DNA from: a virus
Virus record (IMG/VR): IMGVR_UViG_3300032006_000045
Coordinates: 1-32,345 of that record
DNA: 32,345 nt
Direction: 5' to 3' (one strand)
Part shown: piece by piece, positions 6,595-31,857 of the stretch
Layout of the letters: each line of letters opens with the position of its first letter
Numbering within the stretch: the stretch's first letter is position 1
The notes under the pieces: generated by a model
Told to the model about the DNA's origin: nothing
The model's input: the letters and a program-made list of their open reading frames with translations, nothing else
Databases searched by the model: none
Program-made: the position numbers and the translations under genes

Positions 6595-7367
6595 TGGCAA
6601 CTATCAAATACATGCCTTTCGGCGTAACAGATCTTTTTCGTAAGAACATTGTCGCTAAAGCACTTTCTAAAACCGGTTACACCGATATGGAAAACGGTTT
6701 CACTGAAGGTGTCCGTGATGATTTTTACAAGTCAGGTTCCGATTATATAAAAGCACGGAACCCCGACCTTCGCGCTATTGCAGGAGGGCACGACGTTTAC
6801 TTCCATATGTATGAACTTTTAGGGAACAGGCACCCAGAATGGGAAGCCTACTTATGGGTGCACATGGAATTAAGAATCTTGCTCCATAAACTCTTTAACC
6901 CGACAAAGACATTGCTGCATTTCGCTGACCCAAACAAATGGCTTCAAGAGTTAATGGCTGATGGTTCTAAAGAAGTCACGTTTATAAACGGTCTTGATTT
7001 CAACATCATGGAACGTTTTATAGCGAGCAACGACGAGTGGAAAGCAACTAACCCTCAATATAAAGTTATCGACCAATTAGATATCTTCGAAGGCACGAGT
7101 AGCGAGAAATTTGATTACATCGAGACACAAGCAGCGTTACTTTTCGGTGCTGACAGCAAATGGATAACTTCTTTGTGGGACATGGTCGACACAGGCGGTG
7201 TGATGGTTGTCATTAACACCGGGGCAAACAAAGGAATGTACCGGAACACGGTTATGTTGCTACATGAATATGTAGAACCCAATTGGGATTTAAAAGACCT
7301 TCCTAATGCTGAAGTGGTTCACTACCCAATCGACGCTGGCTACACAATTCTTATAAAGACTGCTTAG
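6594..7367 (+). CDS. Class I methyltransferase-fold-like protein, possibly degenerate
   Basis: This 257-residue protein has a C-terminal half with the strand order of a Rossmann-like methyltransferase: KTLLHFAD (residues 105-111), EVTFING (127-133), KVIDQLDIFEG (157-167), KFDYIETQAALLF (172-184), SLWDMVDTGGVMVVINTG (193-210), and a final strand pair near the C-terminus. The FDYIE strand followed by a helix and GGVMVVIN resembles the post-motif region of O-methyltransferases. The glycine-rich S-adenosylmethionine loop normally found after the first strand is missing; the position reads HFADPNKW. It may therefore be a divergent or inactive enzyme. The first 100 residues are helical and unassigned. 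It ends the plus-strand island and overlaps by four bases, tail to tail, with the last oxygenase gene. Confidence 0.55.
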   Translation: MATIKYMPFGVTDLFRKNIVAKALSKTGYTDMENGFTEGVRDDFYKSGSDYIKARNPDLRAIAGGHDVYFHMYELLGNRHPEWEAYLWVHMELRILLHKLFNPTKTLLHFADPNKWLQELMADGSKEVTFINGLDFNIMERFIASNDEWKATNPQYKVIDQLDIFEGTSSEKFDYIETQAALLFGADSKWITSLWDMVDTGGVMVVINTGANKGMYRNTVMLLHEYVEPNWDLKDLPNAEVVHYPIDAGYTILIKTA

Positions 7368-8218
7368 TCTTCTCCGTAGCCCCAACGTTCAGGTTGTTGA
7401 CCTGCCCAGACGTCTCTCATCGCTCGACCTAACGGCTTAGTTAAATAGACGTTGGTTGATCGTCCCAACATTTCTTCCGTGGCTTCTGTCGGGTCAATTA
7501 CATTTTCTCCTACTTCTGGGTTGGGTGTCCCTTGGCAATACCATCCGACATGACTAAACCTTGTGCCACCTTTAACCATCTCGCAAGCATGAGCCCCCAT
7601 GTAATTTGAGGGGAACACAATCAAATCACCTTTGCGTGGTTTGTACCTAATATCGAGATACTTAAACGCTAACCATCCACCCATAAAATTTGTGCCATCG
7701 AGTTGTGACGTGTCATCTACAGAGTCATTAAAGAATGTGATAGTGCTAACCACCGTTCGAGTCGCTATTTGATTTGGCGGATGGGGTGACCCATAGGCGT
7801 AATCAGTACTGGTATCAGCATGAAGCCCGAGAAACGAATCAGGAGGGTAGACGAGAATGTGTCCTCTTATTTTCCACCATACTGACATTGCGGCTATAGA
7901 GAACTGATCAATGTAATCAGTCACACATTTGTCAGTTGTCGTTTCAATGGTTTCTAAAATTTCTTTAATGTCTGGATCAGGGTCGGAGTAGACAAAAGCA
8001 CAATGCCGAGGCATGCACTCTATTCCTTTAGCGTCAAAGAAATATCCGTTTCTGTTTAGGTAACCCTCTTCACCTGTACGTGGGTCTTTCCCTGGCGTGT
8101 ACATTTCAGCCATCTCGGCTTCTGCTTGTTCTAAAGCGAAAGAACGCAAACGATCAAAATCAAGATCAAGAACATTTTTATAAAGAACAACACCGCCACC
8201 TAAATACTCCTTAATCAT
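7364..8218 (-). CDS. 2-oxoglutarate/Fe(II) oxygenase, prolyl-hydroxylase-like (cassette gene 8)
   Basis: This 284-residue protein is predicted to couple decarboxylation of 2-oxoglutarate to oxidation of an unidentified substrate. With the chosen start, the iron ligands are H133 and D135 (in GLHADTSTDY) and H210 (YMGAHACEM), and R220 would bind the 2-oxoglutarate carboxylate. GDLIVFPSNYMGAH is the typical last-strands signature of this superfamily. A longer frame begins at 8233. I prefer the ATG at 8218 because it overlaps the previous stop and follows GTGGGGTC, as in the gene before it, and because the paralogs begin at the equivalent point. A proline-rich insert (residues 142-152) interrupts the core. 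It is the last gene of the leftward operon. Confidence 0.85.
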   Translation of the reverse strand: MIKEYLGGGVVLYKNVLDLDFDRLRSFALEQAEAEMAEMYTPGKDPRTGEEGYLNRNGYFFDAKGIECMPRHCAFVYSDPDPDIKEILETIETTTDKCVTDYIDQFSIAAMSVWWKIRGHILVYPPDSFLGLHADTSTDYAYGSPHPPNQIATRTVVSTITFFNDSVDDTSQLDGTNFMGGWLAFKYLDIRYKPRKGDLIVFPSNYMGAHACEMVKGGTRFSHVGWYCQGTPNPEVGENVIDPTEATEEMLGRSTNVYLTKPLGRAMRDVWAGQQPERWGYGED

Positions 8219-9080
8219 GACCCCACGGCTCACCTGGTCCTCGTTGCAACCAATTCGGATGCTCTTTATCTAACCGCTCCAATGACCAACCGGATGACTC
8301 CATAAAGTCAGTGTCGATTGTGTCGCACCAGGTGAGGGAAGCCTCCGTCTGATGCTCTCTGAAAAAAATCTCTGCTTGGTCAGCATTTGGAGGTATCCGA
8401 AGCGGTTCATTGGAACCTTGGCAATAAAACGTCAAGTAAGACATACGGTGACCTTCATTAACGTATTCAATTTCATGTGCCCCTAAATAATTAGCGGGGA
8501 ACAACAAAATGTCACCAGCCCTGCAAGGGAAATTAAGATTGTCGGCATAAGGAAAAGTCACTCCCCCTCCGTCTGGTGTGTCAACCAAATGCAGGGTTGT
8601 ACTAACCACGTTGTGAGTAGTTAATTCTGACTGCCCAACGATGTCGTCCCATGCAGCGAATGAATATCCGCAATCGTTGTCGTGATGCCCAAAGAGGTGC
8701 CCCATTGGGGCGTCGTAAACAAGCGCATGGCCACGGTTACACCACCAAAGTTGGGAAAGAATCATCGGGTATTTTTCTATGTACTGCAAAAGTGCTGCAT
8801 AACAAACATCTGCGGCTTCTCGCCAAAAGTCATACCAAAATTCCACTTGCGGGATTACTGGTGGAGCATGGACCTGGACTCTGATTGGATCCTGCCCATG
8901 GAACTCGATAGGAGTTCGGGTACCGGTTGCTTTGTTTACAACCTCGTCTCCTTCAACCACATATTGATGCTCCCATTGACCTTTACTAATAACCAACAAC
9001 TCATCAATTATCTCTTCAGGGATTTCCATAGCATTCCGAATGAGAGCAATCCCGTTTTGAAAATGCTCAATCTCAGACAT
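8211..9080 (-). CDS. 2-oxoglutarate/Fe(II) oxygenase, prolyl-hydroxylase-like (cassette gene 7)
   Basis: This 289-residue protein from the ATG at 9080 has iron ligands H132 and D134 in GHHDNDCGY, H202 in YLGAHEIEY, and R212 for 2-oxoglutarate. It is a close paralog of the next gene upstream: both share the MSQ/LSQ-(I/L)WWC-(S/N)RGH segment, HHDND, VVSTTxHL and PANYL. The longer frame from 9170 is rejected because its first 30 residues overlap the upstream gene, match no paralog, and the 9080 ATG aligns with the start of that paralog. The ATG sits directly behind GGGGTGG, within the coding tail of the previous gene, and overlaps its TGA by eight bases. The substrate is unknown. Confidence 0.87.
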   Translation of the reverse strand: MSEIEHFQNGIALIRNAMEIPEEIIDELLVISKGQWEHQYVVEGDEVVNKATGTRTPIEFHGQDPIRVQVHAPPVIPQVEFWYDFWREAADVCYAALLQYIEKYPMILSQLWWCNRGHALVYDAPMGHLFGHHDNDCGYSFAAWDDIVGQSELTTHNVVSTTLHLVDTPDGGGVTFPYADNLNFPCRAGDILLFPANYLGAHEIEYVNEGHRMSYLTFYCQGSNEPLRIPPNADQAEIFFREHQTEASLTWCDTIDTDFMESSGWSLERLDKEHPNWLQRGPGEPWGHD

Positions 9081-9924
9081 GGCCACCCCAATGGTCAGGG
9101 GCGTTTCTGCTTGACATCCACTGTGGGTGACGATGATAAAATGTTTCAAGATCCCACCCTGACGATTCAAGGAAGTCTTCGTGAAGGGTTTTCACCCACG
9201 TGAATGAATTATCTACACGATGTTCACGATCTCTGACTGGGAGAATGTTGCCGCCACCTATTAAATGTGAGCCCTGCCCCCAAAACGTTAGGTATGAGAT
9301 TCTTCTGCTACCTTCTTGGACAGGCGTTATGCCATGAGTGGCTAAATAATTAGCGGGGAAAACTAAAACATCCCCTGCCTTTGTTTCTATCTCTAAATTG
9401 TCTAAGTAAGGAAAGACCATGCTGCCTCCTTCCGAATCACAAAGATGCATCGTGGTGCTTACAACATTCTGTGCAGAAACTTCTGTAAAACCTGCAATTT
9501 TCTCATTCACTGGCCATGCATAACCAACATCATTGTCATGATGGGCTAGTAACCGTGCCCCAGGTTCATAAACCAATGAGTGCCCTCGACTACACCACCA
9601 AATCTGAGACATTAAATGTGGGTAACGCTCAAGATATTTAAGTAAGACACCCCAACAGACATCAGAAGCATACTTCCACCACTCATAATGTTCGTCACTA
9701 GCCTCAGCAGGAGGTTGGTGAACTTGGACACGAACAGGCTTTTCGAGCACCACGTCAATATTGTCAACTATCCCTGTTTGTGTACTGATAAGCAGATCCC
9801 CATCTTTTTCATATTGAGCGTCAAATTCAGCATCCCGTAAATACAACAACTCATCAATGATTGACTGAGGGACATCAATAACGTTCTTATAATGAGAGAC
9901 CCCGTTCCCGTAGTGTTCAACCAT
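9073..9924 (-). CDS. 2-oxoglutarate/Fe(II) oxygenase, prolyl-hydroxylase-like (cassette gene 6)
   Basis: This 283-residue protein has a complete facial triad: H128 and D130 (AHHDNDVGYAW) and H197 (YLATHGITPV), with R208 in the 2-oxoglutarate position. GDVLVFPANYLATHG is the typical double-strand signature. It clearly arose by duplication with its downstream neighbour, with the same motifs in the same order and similar length. The start overlaps the upstream TauD-like gene by eight bases and follows GAAGGG. No signal peptide or membrane segment is seen, so it should act in the cytoplasm on intracellular protein or metabolite substrates. What it oxidises is not shown by the sequence. Confidence 0.88.
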   Translation of the reverse strand: MVEHYGNGVSHYKNVIDVPQSIIDELLYLRDAEFDAQYEKDGDLLISTQTGIVDNIDVVLEKPVRVQVHQPPAEASDEHYEWWKYASDVCWGVLLKYLERYPHLMSQIWWCSRGHSLVYEPGARLLAHHDNDVGYAWPVNEKIAGFTEVSAQNVVSTTMHLCDSEGGSMVFPYLDNLEIETKAGDVLVFPANYLATHGITPVQEGSRRISYLTFWGQGSHLIGGGNILPVRDREHRVDNSFTWVKTLHEDFLESSGWDLETFYHRHPQWMSSRNAPDHWGGHV

Positions 9925-10969
9925 GATATGAATGCCCTTCAGGAACTATGTACTGCTGATCTCGTGGGGGTAAAGTTTGGACAGCATATTGGTTCCCCCC
10001 GTGATACTTAATGTGATCAAAAACAAGTTCGCCTAAATCGAACCCAGCGCCCCACGCTGTTTGCAAACGGTAGGCGTCGTAAATAACAAGATCTCCTTGT
10101 TCCCAATCCCACCACTGTTGGTTATCAGGATTGACAACATAATCGAACACCCATTTAAAAAATTCCATAGGTTCAATACATTCTTCCTCAAACTCGAACG
10201 GGAGTTGAGGGTTGCCGAGGTTGGTCCCCGTGGAATGTAAAACAGGGTAAGAGCCATACCAATGCAATTCAATCACACGGTGAGGATATTGAGTGACCCC
10301 ATCTGGCATATAAGAGACTTGAGTTTCTTTTTTGTATGCTTTCTCCAAAGGATTAACCCATGAAGATGGAAGAGCCTTAAATGCTTCAGACATATCAACA
10401 AACCCCAACCCACCTGCGCGTTTCGAAGCGGTGAAGGTATGCATATGAATGGCATTTGTTCTCACTAAATGCTGTTTATAGGCATCATCCATGTTCCAGA
10501 AAATCATTGTTTGCCGTGACGCTTGTTCTTGCCCTGGGTAAAGAACATCTTCTTCGCCGGGTGGTTTCCCACCTGTCCCCACACCCTTAGTCATTTGTTC
10601 GAACCGTGTGGCAAAGTTTTCGTTTCTACGGATGAATGAACCACTCAATGTGTATTCATCTATACCGGCTCTTTCCACAGGCGTAGTCTCAGTTAGATCC
10701 CCACGGTCTAGTTCTTCGAGGTCATACATCGGTTCACCAAAACGTCGGTCGGCTGTAAGAAAGGCTTCTGTTGTGGCTTTACCCCGTGACCAATCCTCTA
10801 ACGGCTTCTCAGATATAGAAAGTGCTTGGGTTATGTCTGCAAAGTCTTGGACTGTCAGATTCAGACCCCTGAACGCCAAAACTCCTTCTTTGAATAGGAG
10901 CGCTCTGAATTCATCCGCACCATCAAGAATGTCTTCCACTCGGAGATACGAAAAGTTTTGGATCTTCAT
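9917..10969 (-). CDS. TauD/TfdA-like protein lacking the iron ligands (cassette gene 5)
   Basis: This 350-residue protein aligns along its length with the next gene upstream, which has an intact TauD-like site. Shared landmarks are the N-terminal GVLAFRGLNLT strand, RAGGLGFVDMSEAFKALP (the usual G-x-F-x-DM-x-x-AY-x-x-LP stretch), and WEQGDLVIYDAYRL. The iron-binding residues are lost: the HxD/E position reads WNMD (N159, D161), the distal histidine is T304, and the arginine that binds 2-oxoglutarate is not conserved. It may be a pseudoenzyme subunit, a regulator, or a protein that binds the substrate without catalysis. The frame is intact, overlaps its neighbours by 4 and 8 bases, and has a GGAG ribosome binding site, so it is not decaying. 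Confidence 0.8.
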   Translation of the reverse strand: MKIQNFSYLRVEDILDGADEFRALLFKEGVLAFRGLNLTVQDFADITQALSISEKPLEDWSRGKATTEAFLTADRRFGEPMYDLEELDRGDLTETTPVERAGIDEYTLSGSFIRRNENFATRFEQMTKGVGTGGKPPGEEDVLYPGQEQASRQTMIFWNMDDAYKQHLVRTNAIHMHTFTASKRAGGLGFVDMSEAFKALPSSWVNPLEKAYKKETQVSYMPDGVTQYPHRVIELHWYGSYPVLHSTGTNLGNPQLPFEFEEECIEPMEFFKWVFDYVVNPDNQQWWDWEQGDLVIYDAYRLQTAWGAGFDLGELVFDHIKYHGGNQYAVQTLPPRDQQYIVPEGHSYHG

Positions 10970-12030
10970 ATGAACTCCGCAACTGGGCGCTTCCCGTGTG
11001 GATCCCCCGTGAAGCCTTTCCCGAAGTAATACCGTCCTCTTAGAAGCCTCTCATTTTTATTAAACCCACCTTCGACTGCGTGCATTAAAGAAAATATGTC
11101 TAGAGCCAACAAATCCCCCTCGTCCCATTGCAGCCAAAACTGATTTGTTTCAGTTTCTATGTATTCATATAACCATGTTTTGAAATCAAGAAGAAGTCGG
11201 GGATCACACTCTTCTTCTAAGAATTGTTGCCCCCCATTGGAATAAACATCGAAATCAGTTTTATAAGCCGTCCCATAAGTTCCTCCCCATGTGTTAATTT
11301 TCGGCATTTCTGACTCTAAACGCCACATCTCTTTAGGGCGTTCACCATGATCCTCTGGGGGGAAAGGTGTCACCGAACGAATCACATATCGCCCCGTGAC
11401 AGGATGTTCCATTGCCAATGGTTTAGGATCCACCACTATCGCATCAGATGTTTCAGGAACCGGGATCCAAAACGGTTCCCCTTGGGCAACTGTTCTGTAA
11501 GCCTGACTACGAAACCAGTCGATGTCCACTGGCATAAACCCTGGGACACTTACAGTTTGCACCCTGTGGGAAAACTCGCGTAAACGATCAGGCATCCTGT
11601 CATAAATCAACCCGCCGTCAATGAAACCAGTCCTACCAACTCCTCTTTTTTTAGGGAACTTGTCCATCGACCACAACCCGTGCACGGGTGGATTTAACAT
11701 CTCATTGTTTTCATAGTGCCACGGATTCATTTTGAGAGAGTCATGAGGGTCGATTCCAGCAGAACCTCGTGACTCTAGAAGAGCATCTTTCAATGAGGTT
11801 TTACCCATGTCTTCCATGACTTTGAACATGTGGTTGTAAGTAACTTCATATCGTGAAACATGATCATTAGGCGAAACCAAACCAAAGACGTCAGCCACAA
11901 CATCTTTTTCTTCTTCGGTAGCATTCAACTTCGGGAAAAGCACAAGAGGGTGCTGATTAAGTATGCCTTCAAAATCTTCAGGGTATTTAGTGAGATCATC
12001 AAGTGTCACGTTGTCTAGAACACGGATCAT
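10966..12030 (-). CDS. TauD/TfdA-like 2-oxoglutarate/Fe(II) dioxygenase (cassette gene 4)
   Basis: This 354-residue protein carries the TauD-like triad with a glutamate variant: H105 and E107 in NPWHYENNE, and H317 in SLMHAVEGG. R328, R331 or R333 is the candidate 2-oxoglutarate carboxylate ligand. WDEGDLLALDIFSLMHA matches the family's GDLv-x-D-x-x-x-x-x-H signature, and GRTGFIDGGLIYDRMP matches the central conserved strand and helix. TauD family members oxidise small molecules such as sulfonates, carnitine or phenoxyacetates, and some act on amino acids or peptidyl substrates. Here the substrate is unknown. The start overlaps the upstream stop as TAATG, preceded by CAGGAG, which indicates coupled translation with the DUF6065-like gene. 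Confidence 0.87.
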   Translation of the reverse strand: MIRVLDNVTLDDLTKYPEDFEGILNQHPLVLFPKLNATEEEKDVVADVFGLVSPNDHVSRYEVTYNHMFKVMEDMGKTSLKDALLESRGSAGIDPHDSLKMNPWHYENNEMLNPPVHGLWSMDKFPKKRGVGRTGFIDGGLIYDRMPDRLREFSHRVQTVSVPGFMPVDIDWFRSQAYRTVAQGEPFWIPVPETSDAIVVDPKPLAMEHPVTGRYVIRSVTPFPPEDHGERPKEMWRLESEMPKINTWGGTYGTAYKTDFDVYSNGGQQFLEEECDPRLLLDFKTWLYEYIETETNQFWLQWDEGDLLALDIFSLMHAVEGGFNKNERLLRGRYYFGKGFTGDPHGKRPVAEFI

Positions 12031-12749
12031 TATGGCTCCTGAAGCGTTGGGTGCCCCTCATGTTTGGGGCCTATCTGCTCGCCTTTTTCGTTTAGGCCAG
12101 TTCTGACACTCCCCATCCATGACCATGGCTGTTCTCTCATTTTAGCCGTTTTAGCATTCCCATACGATTGGCGGGAGGCCATCAATTGATCGTCATCCCA
12201 AATGTTCTTAACATCTAATTCCACATTGCACTGAAAATCATCTTCAACGATCTGGAAAAACATAAACGGCATACCCTCAGGGAAGACAACTTCTTTACCA
12301 GGAGTGGTCATCATCCAATTCATGTTCACTTCATCTGGCCACCAACCAGGAACCATCGCAGTTAAAGGAACGGCGCCATCAATAAAATAATTAGGAGGGC
12401 CTGATAGCAGAACACTGTGCCCTGGTGGTGTGTTTATAGCCCACCCGACAGTGAAAGACATGATGCTAATAATGCTCGGAACAACAACATCGCGTTCGTA
12501 CTCGTGGCCGTTCTCTAACGTGTGTGTGATCTTTTCACCGCTTAAGACTTTGGGGACCGTGTTCCCTCCATCCCATTTGACTACTACATCTTGTTGAAGT
12601 CTCAACTCCCAACCATTGACATTGGCGGCGGTTAAGGGCAGACACTTGTAGGCATGTTTTTTATATGTCGCGTCCATCCACTCTCGTCGTGGGCGACATT
12701 GAGTTATTTGGGGAGGGTTCTGGTGGGTTCGGGTCAGTGTTGCTTTCAT
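12030..12749 (-). CDS. DUF6065-like protein (cassette gene 3)
   Basis: This 239-residue protein matches my memory of the DUF6065 pattern: LPLTAANVNGWEL (residues 38-49), a short stretch with VKWDGG, then VGWAINTPPGHSVLLSGPPN (101-120), DGAVPLTAMVPGWWPD, NMNWMMTTPGKEVVFPEGMPF (142-162). DUF6065 proteins have no established biochemical activity that I know of. The gene is embedded between two oxygenase genes with ATGA and TAATG overlaps, so it probably acts with them, perhaps in substrate recognition or as a partner protein; that is inference. No catalytic triad, membrane segment or signal peptide is visible. Confidence 0.7.
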   Translation of the reverse strand: MKATLTRTHQNPPQITQCRPRREWMDATYKKHAYKCLPLTAANVNGWELRLQQDVVVKWDGGNTVPKVLSGEKITHTLENGHEYERDVVVPSIISIMSFTVGWAINTPPGHSVLLSGPPNYFIDGAVPLTAMVPGWWPDEVNMNWMMTTPGKEVVFPEGMPFMFFQIVEDDFQCNVELDVKNIWDDDQLMASRQSYGNAKTAKMREQPWSWMGSVRTGLNEKGEQIGPKHEGHPTLQEP

Positions 12750-13471
12750 GAACTCGCTGACTGTACCTGTCCAGTTGCGTCTTCGATGCCTATTTGGGTT
12801 TCAAGAGTCAGGTTGTCTGAGCGGTGATTTAAATCGTTGTAGTCATACATCACCACTAAGGAATATTTGGTGCCTGTCTCGATCGGCAAAGATTGGTGGA
12901 CGTAAGGGTAATTCGATGGGAAGACAACCATGTCCCCTGCATGTGGCGTGAATTTTATGTCTTGGTAAGGGAACACCAATTCGCCGCCTGTGTAGTCTTC
13001 GCCGCAGGTGTTGAAGAAAGCCACGACAGAAGTTGTGCAGGTGTATGAGAACCCGCAATCAGGGTGAACTTGGAAATGTTGGCCTTCTTTGTATCTAACG
13101 AAATTAGGCGCTTCGAAGTATTCCAAAGTCCCAAGATTTAGGTTTTCGCAATAATGTTCCACGCAAGCATGAACTGGTCCCATAACTTCGTCGTAGATTT
13201 CTCGAGCGTCGGCGAACTCTTCAGGAGGGTTCGTGAACTGTTCAAACTTAATCCCTTTAGTGCCACCGTATTTGAAGTCAGAGCAGTCCCTGTAATCCAG
13301 CATCTCCTCCACGAAACCAACTCTGGCATTGTTCCATCTGAAAAACGGGTCGTCTTCAGTCAAGATCGCTTCTAACCGCTGTGGGTATGTTTGATTACTT
13401 GGGAAAAGGTTCTTGTAAAGGGTTATACAAGCACCTGGTTGCCCTATTTGATAAGCCTCAATGTCTTTCAT
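12746..13471 (-). CDS. 2-oxoglutarate/Fe(II) oxygenase, prolyl-hydroxylase-like (cassette gene 2)
   Basis: This 241-residue protein from the ATG at 13471 has H136 and D138 (FQVHPDCGFSY) and H192 (PYVHQSLP), with K202 where the 2-oxoglutarate-binding basic residue sits. Lysine here is typical of true prolyl-4-hydroxylases. GGELVFPYQDIKFTPHAGDMVVFPSNY is the usual core, and it runs longer than the paralogs' loops. A 16-residue longer frame from 13519 exists, but the 13471 ATG overlaps the previous TGA and follows AGGAGGGGAAG, the best ribosome binding site in the cassette. The N-terminal segment has six conserved-looking aromatic residues and two cysteine clusters. It is predicted to be cytoplasmic. 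Confidence 0.87.
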   Translation of the reverse strand: MKDIEAYQIGQPGACITLYKNLFPSNQTYPQRLEAILTEDDPFFRWNNARVGFVEEMLDYRDCSDFKYGGTKGIKFEQFTNPPEEFADAREIYDEVMGPVHACVEHYCENLNLGTLEYFEAPNFVRYKEGQHFQVHPDCGFSYTCTTSVVAFFNTCGEDYTGGELVFPYQDIKFTPHAGDMVVFPSNYPYVHQSLPIETGTKYSLVVMYDYNDLNHRSDNLTLETQIGIEDATGQVQSASS

Positions 13472-14097
13472 TCTTCCCCTCCTAATTGGGTGATTGTGTA
13501 GAAAGATGGTGTCGTCCATCTAACACCATCAGTAACAGGGCGAACCCCATGCAAATAGTGGATGTCCCCTGGGTGGGCTACAGCCATTCCTTCTTCGATT
13601 GGTAAAACCATCCCATGCTCGGGATAATAAAAAGCGCCGCCTTCGAAATCTTCATTCCAATAGATAATCGAATTTATGTCGTAAGTGGGAAACGGGTTAG
13701 GGGTGCCATCATTCAACTGTTTGTCGGCATGCGGCAATTGCTCATTCCCTGGTAGCCAACGGACAAGCACCGGCGGTCGTTTATGAACTGCGAGATTGAA
13801 CTTATCTTCAATAGCGAACTGCATTTTTAAAATGTATTTATCAATCAACTTGAAAATCTCAGGGTTGATCTCTTCAAGAATTGAAGCGCTACACATGCGA
13901 TCCCACCAGTAAGAAGCATCGTAAATGCATTCACCATCTTCGTTGTATTCGGTCTCCCGTGGGTTATCCCATTCGTTGATCGTAGGTAAAAACCTTTGGA
14001 TGATTCTGAGATCGACAGGGTCTACGAAATCATAGAGAACAAGAATGTTGTCAGATGAGTCCCCAAAATGGCCGGGTTCTATCAGGGATTCTTCCAT
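13468..14097 (-). CDS. 2-oxoglutarate/Fe(II) oxygenase, prolyl-hydroxylase-like (cassette gene 1)
   Basis: This 209-residue protein is the first oxygenase after the proline-rich repeat gene. H123 and D125 (QLPHADKQL) and H183 (YLHGVRPV) form the metal site, and R193 (DGVRWTTPSFYT) the 2-oxoglutarate site. The double strand reads YDINSIIYWNEDFEGGAFYYPEHG, a typical prolyl-4-hydroxylase core, with the GDIHYLHGVRPV signature near the C-terminus. It is shorter than most of its neighbours, which is close to the minimal size for this fold. Its start lies 20 bases after the repeat gene's stop, and its TGA overlaps the next start. The close linkage with the repeat protein makes that protein the best candidate substrate. 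Confidence 0.87.
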   Translation of the reverse strand: MEESLIEPGHFGDSSDNILVLYDFVDPVDLRIIQRFLPTINEWDNPRETEYNEDGECIYDASYWWDRMCSASILEEINPEIFKLIDKYILKMQFAIEDKFNLAVHKRPPVLVRWLPGNEQLPHADKQLNDGTPNPFPTYDINSIIYWNEDFEGGAFYYPEHGMVLPIEEGMAVAHPGDIHYLHGVRPVTDGVRWTTPSFYTITQLGGEE

Positions 14098-14117: not shown

Positions 14118-14561
14118 TTACTCTTCTTCAGTATCCTTTTCTTCCATCGCATACCCAGGATCCTGATAATGGATAAAGGACGGTGGGAAGTGAGGAGGGA
14201 AAAATGGTGGGAAAAATGGTGGGAAATGAGGTGGGAAAAACGGCGGGAAAAATGGCGGGAAGTGAGGAGGGAAAAACGGCGGAAAGAACGGTGGGAAAAA
14301 CGGCGGGAAAAACGGTGGGAAGAACGGACTGTAATATGTGTAGTCCATTGAATGCCCCAACAACTTGATATCCCCAGCAGTATCTACCTGACTAGCGACC
14401 GTGTTTTCAAGGCCGCTGTTGTCGGTATTGGTTGTGCTTTTAGTACCTACAACCATCCCAGCAGAAACGATTTGGGAGTCAGCGTTAGTGGTTGTCTGTC
14501 CAACAATGTTGGGGATCTCGTCTTTACGTGGGAGATCTTGTTCTGAACCTGACTGCGCCAT
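14118..14561 (-). CDS. PASTA-like domain protein with PFFP/PHFP repeats
   Basis: This 147-residue protein has two parts. Residues 15-77 resemble a PASTA domain: EIPNIVGQTTTNADSQIVSA, then GMVVGT, and ASQVDTAG followed by a final strand. PASTA domains of actinobacterial kinases and penicillin-binding proteins bind peptidoglycan. Residues 79-126 are twelve tandem tetrapeptides of the form P-(F/H)-F-P, with histidine in the sixth, ninth and twelfth units, then an acidic tail. No signal peptide is seen. It lies between fibre genes and the oxygenase run, so it is most likely a small virion protein that touches the host cell wall, and a possible hydroxylation target. I know of comparable FFPP-rich proteins in uncultured marine phages, but not of their role. 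Confidence 0.8.
   Translation of the reverse strand: MAQSGSEQDLPRKDEIPNIVGQTTTNADSQIVSAGMVVGTKSTTNTDNSGLENTVASQVDTAGDIKLLGHSMDYTYYSPFFPPFFPPFFPPFFPPFFPPHFPPFFPPFFPPHFPPFFPPFFPPHFPPSFIHYQDPGYAMEEKDTEEE
14184..14327. repeat. 12-bp tandem repeat coding PFFP/PHFP units
   Basis: Twelve near-perfect 12-bp units encode the P-x-F-P tetrapeptides of the PASTA-like protein. Units with histidine recur about every third unit at the right end, giving a higher-order 36-bp period. Base differences between units are mostly synonymous (GG/CG pairs), which suggests an old, selectively kept array rather than a fresh slippage product. The repeat has no spacers. Confidence 0.9.
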
Positions 14562-14583: not shown

Positions 14584-17460
14584 CTAGTCGTCCAAGTCAC
14601 CTGTCACAAGCCACTCATCTGTGGCGATTTTTGTGATTGTGCAAGACGAATATTGGGCTCGCAATTTGAGCCCCGGAGTTGAACGTAGAGTCACACCAGA
14701 CCCTGCCACTATTGTCGCTTGGGCGCTACCTACTTGCGCGACCTGTACAGAATCCCCAACAGCGAAAGGAACACTGCTGTTAGGTGGAACTGTTATTGAT
14801 TGAGCGGAACCGTTGCTGGTAGTAACCAACTTGCCTCGGTCCCCGATCACCAGGGTGTACGCAGTTCCCGTCTGAGCATTCAGATCGAGGCTGTAACGAA
14901 CGTTACCTGTGACGTCAAAACCGTCGGCATCAAGGACTGCTGTTTCTGTTCCACCAACGTCAAACCGGATTTTGTCCTCATCTGAGGATTCCTCAACTTG
15001 AACCTTGGTGTCATTATCAGCGTCTTTAATGATTGTTGCATCGACCGTGCTTAAACCAGTATCGACATAAGCAGTGGTCGCCACTTTCGTGGAGTTGTCA
15101 TCAGCCGATTGTGTTGTAGCAGTAATTCCGTCTGCGAGGACGACAGTTGCTGCGAGTGAATTCTTCGACAATTGGATGACACCGTCAATGTAAACACTCT
15201 TGCCAGTGGCGAGAGCGATGTGTTCTGAAGATGTCCAAGCGTCAGTTGAGTCAACCCAGTTGAAGGTTTTATCGCTTGCGCCCTTCAGGGTGATTCCACC
15301 GCCGTCAGCAGTGGTGTCACTCGGAGAAGCGACAGCGCCGAGTTCAATGTTCTTGTCATCAACTGTGATGGTTGTTGAACTGATCTCAGTCGTCGTTCCG
15401 TTAACCGTGAGGTTCCCTGAAATGGTGACAGTGCCATCAGCGGCTATTGTCATTCTTTCTGAACCGGCAGTGTCAAAACGAATAATGTCTTCGTCTGAGG
15501 ATTCTTCTAACTGGATCTTGGTGTCGCCATCAGCGTCATCTATTGATGTGATTGCGGCAGAGGCTGTGGTGGCTTGAGTATCCGTATATGCGGTCGTTGC
15601 CACTTTCGTAGAGTTGTCGCTAGCAGATTGTGTGGTTGCTGCGACGCCATCTGCGAGAACAACCGTGGCTGCTAGAGAAGTGCTCGTCAAAAGGCTTGTG
15701 CCTCCTACGAGTATCCCCATGCTAGAAGCAAGGTTGATACCTGATTGCATCACGTCAGCGATTGTTGAGTCAGTTCCGTTTATCGAAACGCTCATACGGA
15801 TTGTTCCGTCTTCGCCACCTGCTGCTGGATCTGAAACAAGACCCGTAATCATTCCGTAGATGTTGTCTGAGCCGCCGTCGTCTTCACCCATGAATTGGAT
15901 TTGTCCGAGCAGATCGTTAGCAGCCTGACTTCCACTGTTTCTTTCTAAGTAAAGAAACGGCCCAGCACTAGCACCACTATCAGTAGTGAGAATGTTTATT
16001 GCACTTCCGAAAGCACCAGTAATTCCTGTTGCAGCGAACTGGCTGCTAGTGAATGAATACTTGTCGCTGCCAGCAAGATTTACTTTCATAACGTCATCTG
16101 CACTCCAATAAAGTTTGGAATCAGAATCAGTGTCATAAACCTCAGTGATTTTTAGATCTATAGCACCATCACCAGCATCGTCGTAGGTCGCCGTAGCGCC
16201 GCTGTGAGAGCCGTTGGTGGCTAATTGGGCCCCAACTATGTCTTCAACGTTCTCCGTGACGAGAGCAAGGTCTATGGCGCCGTCACCGGCATCGTCGTAT
16301 GTGGCTGTAATACCAGTGTGTGATCCGTTTGTTGCTAATTGTGCTCCTGCGATATCTTGCACATTTTCTGAAACGAGAGCCAAATCGACGGCTCCGTCAC
16401 CTGCATCATCGTAAGTAGCGGTGATTCCTGTGTGAGACCCATTAGTCGCTAATTGCGCCCCTGCGACATCTTGCGCCGCTTCAGTAAAATCAGTTACTGC
16501 TGAAGCAGCGATAGCGATAGTCGTGTCAGAAGCAGCGGTTAAACGCCCATAAGTATCAACCGTGAAAGTAGGCACAGCCGAAGCGCTACCGTAAGAAGCG
16601 CCTGTCACAGCCGTTGCCGCTAAATCAATATCGTCTGCGTTAACAACTATTCGTGCAGAACTAGCAGTCCCAACGTTGATTGTGTTACCACTGCTTGCGA
16701 GACCCGTACCGGGAGTGATCGCCTGGGTACCTGTGAATTGTGTGAATGCAATATCGTTAGTACCCACAGTGTGTGGATCACTTGTGGATGTTACAACAAA
16801 GCCTTGACCACCATTGGTGCTACCAGAGAGAACATAAACTGATTCGCCAGGGATAATCTCGGCTCCAGCGCTACCATCAAAGTCAACTGCACGAGTTAAT
16901 ACCCATGCGGCTGAACCGGAAGCGCCTTGAGCGGTTACATCATAAATACCGTTGTTAGCGGCAGTGGATTCGTCTTGGACAAGAATTCGATCGCCTGTGC
17001 TGGCGTTAGTGCCATCTACTTGTAAACGAACGTTTGAATCTGAGGTGAGTGTTGCTCCTACACCTGATGTCCCATTGCTGTAAGTCGGGGAGTTGGGGAG
17101 TGCGGCAGCGGTGCCCAACTTCACGGCTTCATGCCAGTGAACGACTTTCTCAGGGGATCCCCATTTAACACCACCACTTTGAGCGCTATCAGCGATAAGA
17201 ACTTGTCCATTCGAGCCAACGGCGACTCGGTCGACAGAGTTATCGGCGGTTCCTAAAATAAGGTCACCTTTAGCATCAACGAGGGCAGTGTCAATTGCAC
17301 CTAACCCGCCGTATCCAAGTGACGTCCAGACAGTGCTACCGTCACCGATCTTATACTTCCTAGTGTCCGACTCGATAGCGAACTCACCGTCGCTCAATGT
17401 CGGATTGTTAGATGTCCAGTTGGATGCTGTGTCCCTTCTGAACTGAATTTTTGCTGCCAT
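14584..17460 (-). CDS. Large tail fibre / structural protein
   Basis: This 958-residue protein begins with MAAKIQFRRDTASNW and a KIGDGSTVWTSLGYGG segment, a common N-terminal cap on phage fibre proteins that attaches them to the virion. The rest is serine/threonine/alanine-rich beta-structure with three 38-residue tandem repeats near residues 322-436, and two copies of a segment beginning LAATVVLADG that is followed by EESSDED. A GNLTVNGTTT...TVDDKNIELG module near residues 660-750 is shared with the smaller fibre gene at 17971. These features fit a trimeric receptor-binding or side fibre. The start follows AGGAG. The gene precedes the PASTA-like repeat protein by 22 bases. No enzymatic domain is seen. 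Confidence 0.8.
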   Translation of the reverse strand: MAAKIQFRRDTASNWTSNNPTLSDGEFAIESDTRKYKIGDGSTVWTSLGYGGLGAIDTALVDAKGDLILGTADNSVDRVAVGSNGQVLIADSAQSGGVKWGSPEKVVHWHEAVKLGTAAALPNSPTYSNGTSGVGATLTSDSNVRLQVDGTNASTGDRILVQDESTAANNGIYDVTAQGASGSAAWVLTRAVDFDGSAGAEIIPGESVYVLSGSTNGGQGFVVTSTSDPHTVGTNDIAFTQFTGTQAITPGTGLASSGNTINVGTASSARIVVNADDIDLAATAVTGASYGSASAVPTFTVDTYGRLTAASDTTIAIAASAVTDFTEAAQDVAGAQLATNGSHTGITATYDDAGDGAVDLALVSENVQDIAGAQLATNGSHTGITATYDDAGDGAIDLALVTENVEDIVGAQLATNGSHSGATATYDDAGDGAIDLKITEVYDTDSDSKLYWSADDVMKVNLAGSDKYSFTSSQFAATGITGAFGSAINILTTDSGASAGPFLYLERNSGSQAANDLLGQIQFMGEDDGGSDNIYGMITGLVSDPAAGGEDGTIRMSVSINGTDSTIADVMQSGINLASSMGILVGGTSLLTSTSLAATVVLADGVAATTQSASDNSTKVATTAYTDTQATTASAAITSIDDADGDTKIQLEESSDEDIIRFDTAGSERMTIAADGTVTISGNLTVNGTTTEISSTTITVDDKNIELGAVASPSDTTADGGGITLKGASDKTFNWVDSTDAWTSSEHIALATGKSVYIDGVIQLSKNSLAATVVLADGITATTQSADDNSTKVATTAYVDTGLSTVDATIIKDADNDTKVQVEESSDEDKIRFDVGGTETAVLDADGFDVTGNVRYSLDLNAQTGTAYTLVIGDRGKLVTTSNGSAQSITVPPNSSVPFAVGDSVQVAQVGSAQATIVAGSGVTLRSTPGLKLRAQYSSCTITKIATDEWLVTGDLDD
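16153..16494. repeat. Three tandem 114-bp repeats inside the large fibre gene
   Basis: Units at about 16153-16266, 16267-16380 and 16381-16494 encode 38-residue blocks ending in the QLATNGSHTGITATYDDAGD type sequence. Amino acids are nearly identical while codons differ, so the copies have diverged under protein-level selection. Such repeats lengthen fibre shafts and provide recombination sites. Confidence 0.85.
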
Positions 17461-17970: not shown

Positions 17971-19110
17971 CTAACCGATAACCACCACTTTATATGCGCC
18001 GGATGCCGGAGCCGATGCGAATGAAACTGTCACCTGGCTGGTGGAGTTCCGTGTCACATTGGCAAAAACTGTGTCGTTAGTGGATGCGTCGTAAACCTCA
18101 ACCATGACATCCATGGTTGACCTGTTATGTGTTATAGCGAACGATGTAGAAGAACCGTCACCGATAGTTGCAGTGACTTTTTCCATGATGCCAAGGTTTG
18201 CCCTGGCATCTCCAGCAGTAGAGGCTCCAGTACCACCATGGGCTACCGCAATGTCGGTTGCAGCCCATGTGCCTGAGGCGATAGTGCCGACCGAAGTAAG
18301 TGATGAGGTCGTGACACCAGTCCCAAGCGTAGTTGCACTCAGAACCGAAGTATTATTGATCTTAAATTCTTTACCCGCAGCAGCATTAACATGCTCGGAA
18401 AAATCCCATGAATCAGAATCGTTTTCCCACAGGATGGTTTTATCAGTGGCACCTTTCAGGGTGATACCGCCGCCATCAGCGGTGATATCAGTTGGGGAGC
18501 CGATAGAACCAAGTTCGAGGTTCTTGTCGTCAACTGTGAGAGTGGTGGAGTTGACCGTTGTGGTTGTGCCGTTAACAGTCAGGTTCCCCGTGACAGTCAG
18601 GTGTTGTCCGATTGTTACATCATCAGGGAGACCGATAACAAGGGTTCCTGATCCATCCGTATAGGTAACCGATACTTCGTCTGCTGTTCCCGAGATAAGG
18701 GCCCCAGCAACATCCTCTACGGCTTCTTGAAAATCTGTAACTTGAGTATTTGGAATCGCTATGTTGACATCAGCGGCAGCGGTTAAACGACCTTGAGCGT
18801 CAACCGTATAAGTCGGGACTGCGGTCGCACTGCCATAAGAGTTAGCGGTAACCGAAGTATCCGCAATATTTATCGTAACGTCTCCCTGGACCCCACCTCC
18901 CGAGAGTCCCGTGCCCGCCGTGACAGATTCGATATCGCCTTCAGCGAGGTTTATCCATGAACTCCCATTGTAAAAATTGAGGGTATTGTTCGTGGTGTTG
19001 TAGTACATCTGCCCAGTGACAGGCGTGCTAGGAGCGCTAGCAAGATTCTCTATCCGAGGCTTGATTAGTTGATTTTGATTTAGGTCAAGATTGACCAAAT
19101 ACTTCGGCAT
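17971..19110 (-). CDS. Tail fibre / structural protein, paralog of the large fibre
   Basis: This 379-residue protein starts with a MPKYLVNLDLNQNQL cap and APSTPVTGQMYYNTTNNTLNFYNGSSW, the usual fibre N-terminal motif. It shares two blocks with the 958-residue fibre: a TVDAQGRLTAAAD region and the module from GNLTVNGTTT through ADGGGITLKGATDK. The C-terminal part (SFAITHNRSTMDVMVEVYDA... VTVSFASAPASGAYKVVVIG) has the beta-sandwich pattern seen at fibre tips that bind receptors. The start follows AGGAG. It probably forms a second fibre or a short adsorption spike. Its specificity cannot be read from the sequence. Confidence 0.75.
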   Translation of the reverse strand: MPKYLVNLDLNQNQLIKPRIENLASAPSTPVTGQMYYNTTNNTLNFYNGSSWINLAEGDIESVTAGTGLSGGGVQGDVTINIADTSVTANSYGSATAVPTYTVDAQGRLTAAADVNIAIPNTQVTDFQEAVEDVAGALISGTADEVSVTYTDGSGTLVIGLPDDVTIGQHLTVTGNLTVNGTTTTVNSTTLTVDDKNLELGSIGSPTDITADGGGITLKGATDKTILWENDSDSWDFSEHVNAAAGKEFKINNTSVLSATTLGTGVTTSSLTSVGTIASGTWAATDIAVAHGGTGASTAGDARANLGIMEKVTATIGDGSSTSFAITHNRSTMDVMVEVYDASTNDTVFANVTRNSTSQVTVSFASAPASGAYKVVVIG

Positions 19111-21639: not shown

Positions 21640-21969
21640 TTAGGCTTCGCCTGCTTCAAGGATTCTTTTCGCCCTAAGTATCAATAAACGCTCCCTTGTG
21701 CTCTTCCCTCCCCAAATCCCATAACGCTCATTATTCTCTAAGGCGTACCTTAAACAATCATCAACTACTGGGCATGTGGAACACATAGCCTTAGCCGCTT
21801 TAAGCGATTCTGTATCCCCTGGCGATGGGAAAAATATTGACGGGTCTTCACAAGTTCTACAAGAAGCGTCTTTCTGATATTGAGGTCGCTCGATTGCAAG
21901 TATGCGATCAGAATTATCCCAGCCAGCCGATTCGACTCTGGGCATTGAGTAATCATCGCCCCAAGCCAT
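21640..21969 (-). CDS. WhiB-family iron-sulfur transcription regulator
   Basis: This 109-residue protein carries the family hallmarks: cysteines at 37 or 40, 63, 66 and 72 (C-x2-C-x5-C at KAMCSTCPVVDDC) for a 4Fe-4S cluster, an EDPSIFFP segment before them, and GIWGG at 84-88 followed by basic residues. WhiB proteins bind the sigma factor region 4 and occur almost only in Actinobacteria and their phages, which is why this window points to an actinobacterial host. Phage WhiB homologs such as WhiBTM4 can inhibit host WhiB function. It sits between the lysin and the connector genes, an unusual spot for a regulator. Confidence 0.93.
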   Translation of the reverse strand: MAWGDDYSMPRVESAGWDNSDRILAIERPQYQKDASCRTCEDPSIFFPSPGDTESLKAAKAMCSTCPVVDDCLRYALENNERYGIWGGKSTRERLLILRAKRILEAGEA

Positions 21970-31182: not shown

Positions 31183-31857
31183 CTACCATCCCGGAAATAA
31201 GCCCATCTGTTTACCATCGGCCCGATGATCAAACGCCCCATCCATCAATTCCGCAACTAGGTACCGAACTAATTCAGGATCATCTAACGATCTGTTCGCT
31301 AAAACAGAAATTGAATTAAACGCCCCGATGGCAGCGCTGAAAACCATTTTCAAAAATTGGGGGTCTCCTTTTATTGGGATCCACCGAAAAGTGCTTGCTG
31401 ACCCACTGAATATTGAAGCGAAGTCTTCTGACCAGTCAGTATCAGAAATGTAGCCCCTCACCACTTTCCCTTGCGGGGGGGGATTACCGAATATGGCTCC
31501 ATCTATGTATGAGATGCCGTGAGCCTCTGCATACATTTCTAAATCTCGTTTCCGTTCGGGAGGTTTGGTGTTCGCGTCACAATAAATCCCTCGGAAACCA
31601 GCCTCACCCACCCGATCCAAAGTTTCTATTGACCAATTAGGGTTCCCATAATCAACGCCAACGCAAAGAATGTATTTTGTTTGCCTAGCCATTTCTTCCA
31701 GAGTGACAACATCCCGGAAGTCATACTTGTCGGCTCGTTGTTTCGTTCTTTCTGACCGCCCTTGGCTAGCCCAAATGATTTCATGGAAGTTGTCTTGTGC
31801 GGCACGGGCAATCCCAGTTCCCATTTCGCCGGGTGAAATTAAACCTATTACTGTCAT
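31183..31857 (-). CDS. 6-phosphogluconate-dehydrogenase-like NAD(P)-binding protein (auxiliary metabolic gene)
   Basis: This 224-residue protein begins with MTVIGLISPGEMGTGIARAA, a Rossmann glycine loop and the usual G-x-M-G motif of 6PGDH/3-hydroxyisobutyrate dehydrogenase-like enzymes. YIDGAIFGNPP (117-127) corresponds to the conserved Y-x-D-A-x-x-x-G substrate loop, and K170 in FLKMVFSAAIGAFNS to the catalytic lysine. The C-terminal domain is about 60-80 residues shorter than in typical 290-residue members. It could act on a short hydroxyacid or be a binding protein. Its ATG overlaps the stop of the small gene upstream (ATGA), so it is part of the structural operon, which is odd for a metabolic enzyme. 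Confidence 0.75.
   Translation of the reverse strand: MTVIGLISPGEMGTGIARAAQDNFHEIIWASQGRSERTKQRADKYDFRDVVTLEEMARQTKYILCVGVDYGNPNWSIETLDRVGEAGFRGIYCDANTKPPERKRDLEMYAEAHGISYIDGAIFGNPPPQGKVVRGYISDTDWSEDFASIFSGSASTFRWIPIKGDPQFLKMVFSAAIGAFNSISVLANRSLDDPELVRYLVAELMDGAFDHRADGKQMGLFPGW

Follow-up and report, generated by a model that had tools for sequence, protein, structure and literature searches.

In this work, an array of Phe- and Pro-rich tetrapeptides in a small viral protein was observed to be associated, in both directions and independently of the domain that carries it, with two 2OG-Fe(II) oxygenases encoded beside it (OxyA and OxyB). We hypothesize that OxyA and OxyB have the array as their dedicated substrate and that, once modified, it forms a rod at the tail tip, a reading to which we give a probability of about 0.65; the modification, the modified residue, the location in the virion and the contact with the host are all inferred. 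The window, i.e., the whole stretch of DNA analyzed, is 32,345 bases long and makes up a virus record in which portal and HK97-type capsid genes are also encoded. The array gene and its upstream neighbour are placed as follows.

14584 to 17460, minus strand: tail-fibre gene with an Mtd_N domain, immediately upstream of the array gene
14118 to 14561, minus strand: PASTA-(xFPP)12 protein, 147 aa, ATG start; candidate substrate and putative tail-tip rod
14325 to 14531, minus strand: PASTA domain, residues 11–79 by fold, Pfam match at residues 15–62
14181 to 14324, minus strand: [F/H]FPP array, 12 units, residues 80–127

An earlier note on this DNA had described a small protein that joins a PASTA-like domain to twelve proline-rich tetrapeptides and lies 20 bases before the first prolyl-hydroxylase-like gene. 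Both statements are accurate. The open reading frame runs from 14561 to 14118 on the minus strand, its 12 contiguous perfect units comprise nine FFPP and three HFPP with Pro at 24 of the 48 residues, and the gap from its stop to the OxyA ATG (14097) is exactly 20 bases. On the other side, 22 bases separate the tail-fibre stop from the start of the array gene. The PFFP/PHFP of the earlier note is the same repeat in another register, and across relatives it is best written xFPP, where x is F, H, Y, or W. Tandem Repeats Finder reported a period of 12 bases at 14197–14327, and the longest run in 20,000 residue shuffles of the protein was two units. No family in Pfam, PHROG, or NCBIfam covers the array.

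The repeat is maintained at the protein level. By comparing 140 non-redundant arrays (2,098 units), position 1 was found to be F in 1170, H in 481, Y in 400, W in 24, L in 16, and another residue in 7, so that F/H/Y/W account for 2,075 units (99%). F at position 2 was a condition of the search, so its constancy there is built in; nothing of the kind was imposed at position 1. Furthermore, 42% of the F/P codons differ between adjacent units, which rules out an origin of the array as a slippage artefact. The restricted position 1 together with this codon change therefore shows that purifying selection acts on the aromatic-Phe-Pro-Pro motif of the protein.

Downstream of the array gene, three genes form the conserved core and are followed by five accessory oxygenase genes.

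13468 to 14097, minus strand: OxyA, 2OG-Fe(II) oxygenase, nearest to prolyl 3-/4-hydroxylases
12746 to 13519, minus strand: OxyB, second 2OG-Fe(II) oxygenase
12030 to 12749, minus strand: DUF6065 protein, third member of the conserved core, with a predicted dUTPase-like (beta-clip) fold
10966 to 12030, minus strand: TauD-family 2OG oxygenase, accessory
9917 to 10969, minus strand: TauD-family 2OG oxygenase, accessory
9073 to 9924, minus strand: PF13640 2OG oxygenase, accessory
8211 to 9170, minus strand: PF13640-like 2OG oxygenase, accessory, alone below the Pfam cut-off
7364 to 8233, minus strand: PF13640 2OG oxygenase, accessory

The residues H123, D125, H183, and R193 of OxyA, which correspond to the HxD...H triad and the basic 2OG ligand, are invariant in 107/107 sequences. 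Among PDB sequences, the OxyA profile matched prolyl 3-hydroxylase 1 with E 2.6e-6 and the prolyl 4-hydroxylase of Bacillus with E 5.5e-4. The window protein itself reached 20.7 bits against PF13640 (cut-off 27) and E 5.5e-11 against PHROG 61, and the L182 homologue exceeds the PF13640 cut-off with 33.4 bits. The closest sequence kin of OxyA are prolyl 3- and 4-hydroxylases, but its residue specificity is not readable from sequence. OxyB exceeds the PF13640 cut-off (43.5 bits), has its HxD at position 152, and conserves the HxD, H208, and K218 in 30 sequences; its nearest relatives are PKHD-type hydroxylases and lysyl hydroxylase LH3. The core of the DUF6065 model (mean pLDDT 81.6) aligned with dUTPases in VIA-align with Z about 10 and rmsd 2.7–6.9 over 115–133 residues. 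Such a predicted fold does not give the function of DUF6065. Among cellular copies, one in Sinorhizobium (L395) lies after an autotransporter with a polyproline stretch, but the Niveispirillum copy has no neighbour of this kind, and the cellular neighbours therefore give no clue to DUF6065 function.

The association itself was measured from the repeat outward. A scan for the (xFPP)5 DNA pattern, made with no reference to oxygenases, found at least 120 stretches in viral contigs, whereas genome contigs representing 84,980 species yielded only 7. Two of these 7 (L116 and L117) have the oxygenase cassette and, we infer, look like phage contigs in metagenome bins. The 49 pattern loci with at least 5 kb downstream fell into 39 clusters at 80% nucleotide identity, of which 32 contained OxyA, 33 OxyB, 31 DUF6065, and 35 any 2OG oxygenase. 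The same profiles found no OxyA, OxyB, or DUF6065 in 83 random viral loci, where any 2OG oxygenase occurred in two. In 52 (Pro-Thr)n loci there were no OxyA and no DUF6065 and four OxyB-like proteins, and in 45 collagen-like (GPP)n loci all three were absent. Fisher tests for OxyA gave values below 1e-15 in each control comparison, with the reservation that the clusters are partly related by descent and not fully independent. A general association with proline-rich or collagen-like repeats was ruled out by the OxyA counts in the (PT)n and (GPP)n loci (0/52 and 0/45).

In the reverse direction, the best 80 of 334 OxyA relatives yielded 37 loci with 3.5 kb upstream, and the rule is limited to those. 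An array of at least four units was present within the locus in 34 of these 37 close relatives, and in the remaining three (L091, L092, and L093) it lies a little beyond the limits of the locus, still on that contig. Among generic, more distant 2OG oxygenase phage records, five of them from cultured cyanophages, 0/8 had the array. Six array loci have no nearby oxygenase; PF13640 genes are found elsewhere on the contig in four of them, and no such gene in L238 and L240. The co-occurrence of the repeat with these oxygenases in related phages, whose absence was one of the two refuting conditions set by the earlier note, is strong both ways (32/39 forward and 37/37 reverse), and the idea that the array is a natural candidate substrate is well supported by genome context, with no modification shown.

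The OxyB-like proteins of the (Pro-Thr)n loci (84–110 bits) lie within 6 kb of the repeat in 4/52 phage loci, at L462 6092–6724, L478 5001–5603, L437 2737–3339, and L524 5935–6615, those of L462 and L478 being close to it. Other proline-rich phage repeats may have oxygenases of their own.

Relatives of the array protein are encoded on 35 viral contigs and have roughly 9–32 repeat units. In nearly all of them a relative of the tail fibre is found upstream and relatives of OxyA, OxyB, and DUF6065 downstream, sometimes with other genes between. These intervening genes encode glutathione-peroxidase-like proteins in five of ten relatives examined (glutathione-peroxidase/redoxin-like, at L006 7158–8105, L011 6613–7542, L013 6537–7574, L022 5832–6782, and L027 8042–9037). 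A carbamoyltransferase is part of the cassette in seven loci (e.g., L028 4203–5672), a possible further decoration step.

The domain on which the array is mounted is not constant. Carriers include fibronectin III proteins and a central-tail-fibre-J-like protein (the array ends the J-like protein in L048), and some have a Hint/intein-like domain after the array. The end of the array is at most five residues from the C-terminus in 79 of 157 distinct carriers, most often as xFK. Arrays that mix FFP and FFPP, with Hint/intein-like sequences after them, make up a second lineage (L179, L182, L201, L205, L223, L224, and L127), in several loci of which OxyA, OxyB, and DUF6065 are present in divergent form; its Hint domain could release the array end. 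Along the OxyA tree (106 proteins), mount and strand, taken together as one label, shift repeatedly while the array stays, with 19 changes over seven labels. Well supported branches force at least six changes for the PASTA-same-strand label, and in one clade OxyA is on the opposite strand. The labels (PASTA, fibronectin III-like, other, plus strand) were assigned partly by motif and from rows that are partly incomplete, and are approximate. Since the mount varies while the repeat and OxyA stay, what is linked to OxyA is the repeat rather than PASTA. Placement in the tail module holds, with the array gene following the Mtd_N fibre gene and arrays occurring in tail-fibre proteins of relatives as well. 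Both the gene order, with the array after the tail fibre, and the terminal place of the array in J-like proteins point to display at the tail tip, presence in the virion being inferred.

The earlier PASTA assignment was upheld by the family profile and the predicted fold, so that the other refuting condition of the earlier note, no similarity to PASTA in a profile search, was not fulfilled either. The window protein alone is a near miss against PASTA (PF03793), with 19.0 bits under the Pfam cut-off of 23.2. The domain was matched by 20 of 22 aligned relatives (best 39.0 bits, E 7.8e-10), and 6/7 relatives listed individually exceed the cut-off. An AlphaFold2 model made from the family alignment has pLDDT of about 87–95 over residues 11–80, and PASTA domains (PknB, StkP, PBP1, PrkC, and PonA2) account for each of its 15 highest-ranked PDB matches, the best Foldseek match having E 1.2e-3 and a TM normalized to the target of 0.73. 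At the level of family and predicted fold, the assignment holds. The fold and profile are like those of PASTA in PknB, PrkC, and the penicillin-binding proteins; however, the phage protein has a single PASTA followed by the array, with no kinase or penicillin-binding protein, and in relatives its PASTA is replaced by other domains. Contact with the wall by way of PASTA, itself putative here, cannot be the general function, because PASTA is one of several interchangeable mounts.

A motif-specific, two-way, and mount-independent association is most simply accounted for if OxyA and OxyB act on the array as their substrate. It is also possible, though unlikely, that the oxygenases act on the long tail fibre, a glycan, or DNA, and that the array gene is a mere neighbour in a shared host-recognition island. 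In the PASTA group the relative of the tail fibre is indeed the next gene upstream, neighbouring genes of a tail module may stay together without any enzyme–substrate relation between their products, and cyanophage 2OG oxygenases have been regarded as candidates for DNA repair or for drawing on 2OG, not for tail-protein modification (PMC2984593, PMC3037559), DNA repair being the proposal of one of these papers (PMC2984593). However, OxyA tracks the array across changes of mount and a strand flip, and is absent from random, (PT)n, and (GPP)n phage loci. Neither the array nor OxyA accompanies the distant homologues (L377–L393) of the structural gene nearby, at 17971–19110. Moreover, the generic cyanophage oxygenases mostly adjoin polymerase, recombination, and other non-fibre genes, with no arrays.

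A reading in which the array acts, without modification, as a proline-rich spacer or stalk and the oxygenases serve phage metabolism or an oxygen-dependent regulatory step appears very improbable. Proline-rich linkers without oxygenases do exist in many phages, as in the (PT)n loci, but a spacer should tolerate substitutions, whereas position 1 remains F/H/Y/W despite wide synonymous change, and the enzyme association is specific to the xFPP motif. Slighter still is the support for the idea that the TauD-family enzymes modify the position-1 His, so that array composition and enzyme complement co-evolve; this would extend the substrate reading rather than replace it. TauD-family genes were found in 56 of 67 loci with His-bearing arrays and in 2 of 45 with Tyr-type arrays, but the signal is weaker at an equal flank of 6.5 kb (11/18 vs 3/27), and only two to five independent contrasts exist on the tree, none of them significant. 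Shared ancestry may explain the pattern, and the His–TauD coupling, not being independent of it, was rejected as evidence.

In the mechanism that we propose for the array as an OxyA/OxyB substrate, OxyA would be the core modifier, most likely by prolyl hydroxylation, OxyB would act as a second modifier, and DUF6065 would be a regular partner with an unknown role. Modification would make a Phe/Pro-rich chain more polar, and hydroxylated prolines could favour an extended polyproline-type rod. Oxidation may in this way render the very hydrophobic array soluble and stiff, and the extended rod, mounted on whatever domain is available (in this case PASTA), would make contact with the host from the end of the tail fibre. 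The earlier idea of an extended rod was only weakly addressed by structure prediction. AlphaFold2 modelled the array without regular secondary structure (pLDDT about 52–65) and gave no confident rod, leaving an extended helix neither demonstrated nor ruled out. The wider proposal, in which the two oxygenases and DUF6065 are the core of a widespread, mount-independent host-contact device, unseen in cultured phages, that yields an oxidized rigid rod at the tail tip, may equally well prove right or wrong.

Comparable systems are known. Collagen, plant extensins, and mussel foot protein 1 contain short proline repeats, some of them with aromatic residues, which are modified by 2OG oxygenases to give a stiff or adhesive rod. 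The phage array works like these by analogy only, without sequence relation and with no modification shown, and collagen-like (GPP)n phage loci lack OxyA, unlike the xFPP loci. OxyA resembles collagen prolyl 3-hydroxylase 1 and Bacillus prolyl 4-hydroxylase in profile and with the HxD...H...R intact, but it is a small stand-alone phage enzyme of inferred activity, with xFPP and not Gly-X-Y as its candidate substrate. Giant viruses encode collagens together with a lysyl hydroxylase, i.e., a repeat substrate and its 2OG hydroxylase; however, these are viruses of eukaryotes, and lysine in Gly-X-Y repeats is a different substrate. The cyanophage 2OG-Fe(II) oxygenases (phrog_61 and relatives) belong to the same superfamily as OxyA, but their eight records lack the xFPP array and have recombination and polymerase genes among the neighbours. 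One divergent OxyA reaches them at low identity.

Against cultured phages, the array protein gave one match (E 9) and DUF6065 none, and the matches of OxyA were limited to three single-cell marine virus records that share about 33% identity with it. As the BLAST low-complexity filter hides the array, it is the flanking proteins that underlie the statement that cultured phages lack it. A literature search on the motif, DUF6065, and phage prolyl hydroxylation did not find this system, most subscription papers and bioRxiv being outside its scope. The parts come from known superfamilies; the combination, the motif, and the setting were not found in the literature searched.

As for the host, the window contains a WhiB gene (21640–21969, E 1.2e-21), which is regarded as an actinophage indicator (PMC10202952). 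WhiB genes are also present on the contigs of 10 of 22 relatives. This suggests actinobacterial hosts for many, perhaps not all, carriers. In the structural region of the window, 31183–31857 encodes an NAD-binding dehydrogenase-like protein (F420/6-phosphogluconate dehydrogenase type, weak match), relatives of which occur near the oxygenases in L007, L022, and L029.

The xFPP motif is simple enough to interest makers of biomaterials. If the substrate reading is true, it would mean that phages have a protein-hydroxylation system that acts on a virion protein, that a group of phage 2OG oxygenases has a protein substrate, and that DUF6065 is assigned to a pathway. It also suggests that, in these aquatic phages, the assembly of infectious particles could be limited by how much oxygen and iron is supplied.
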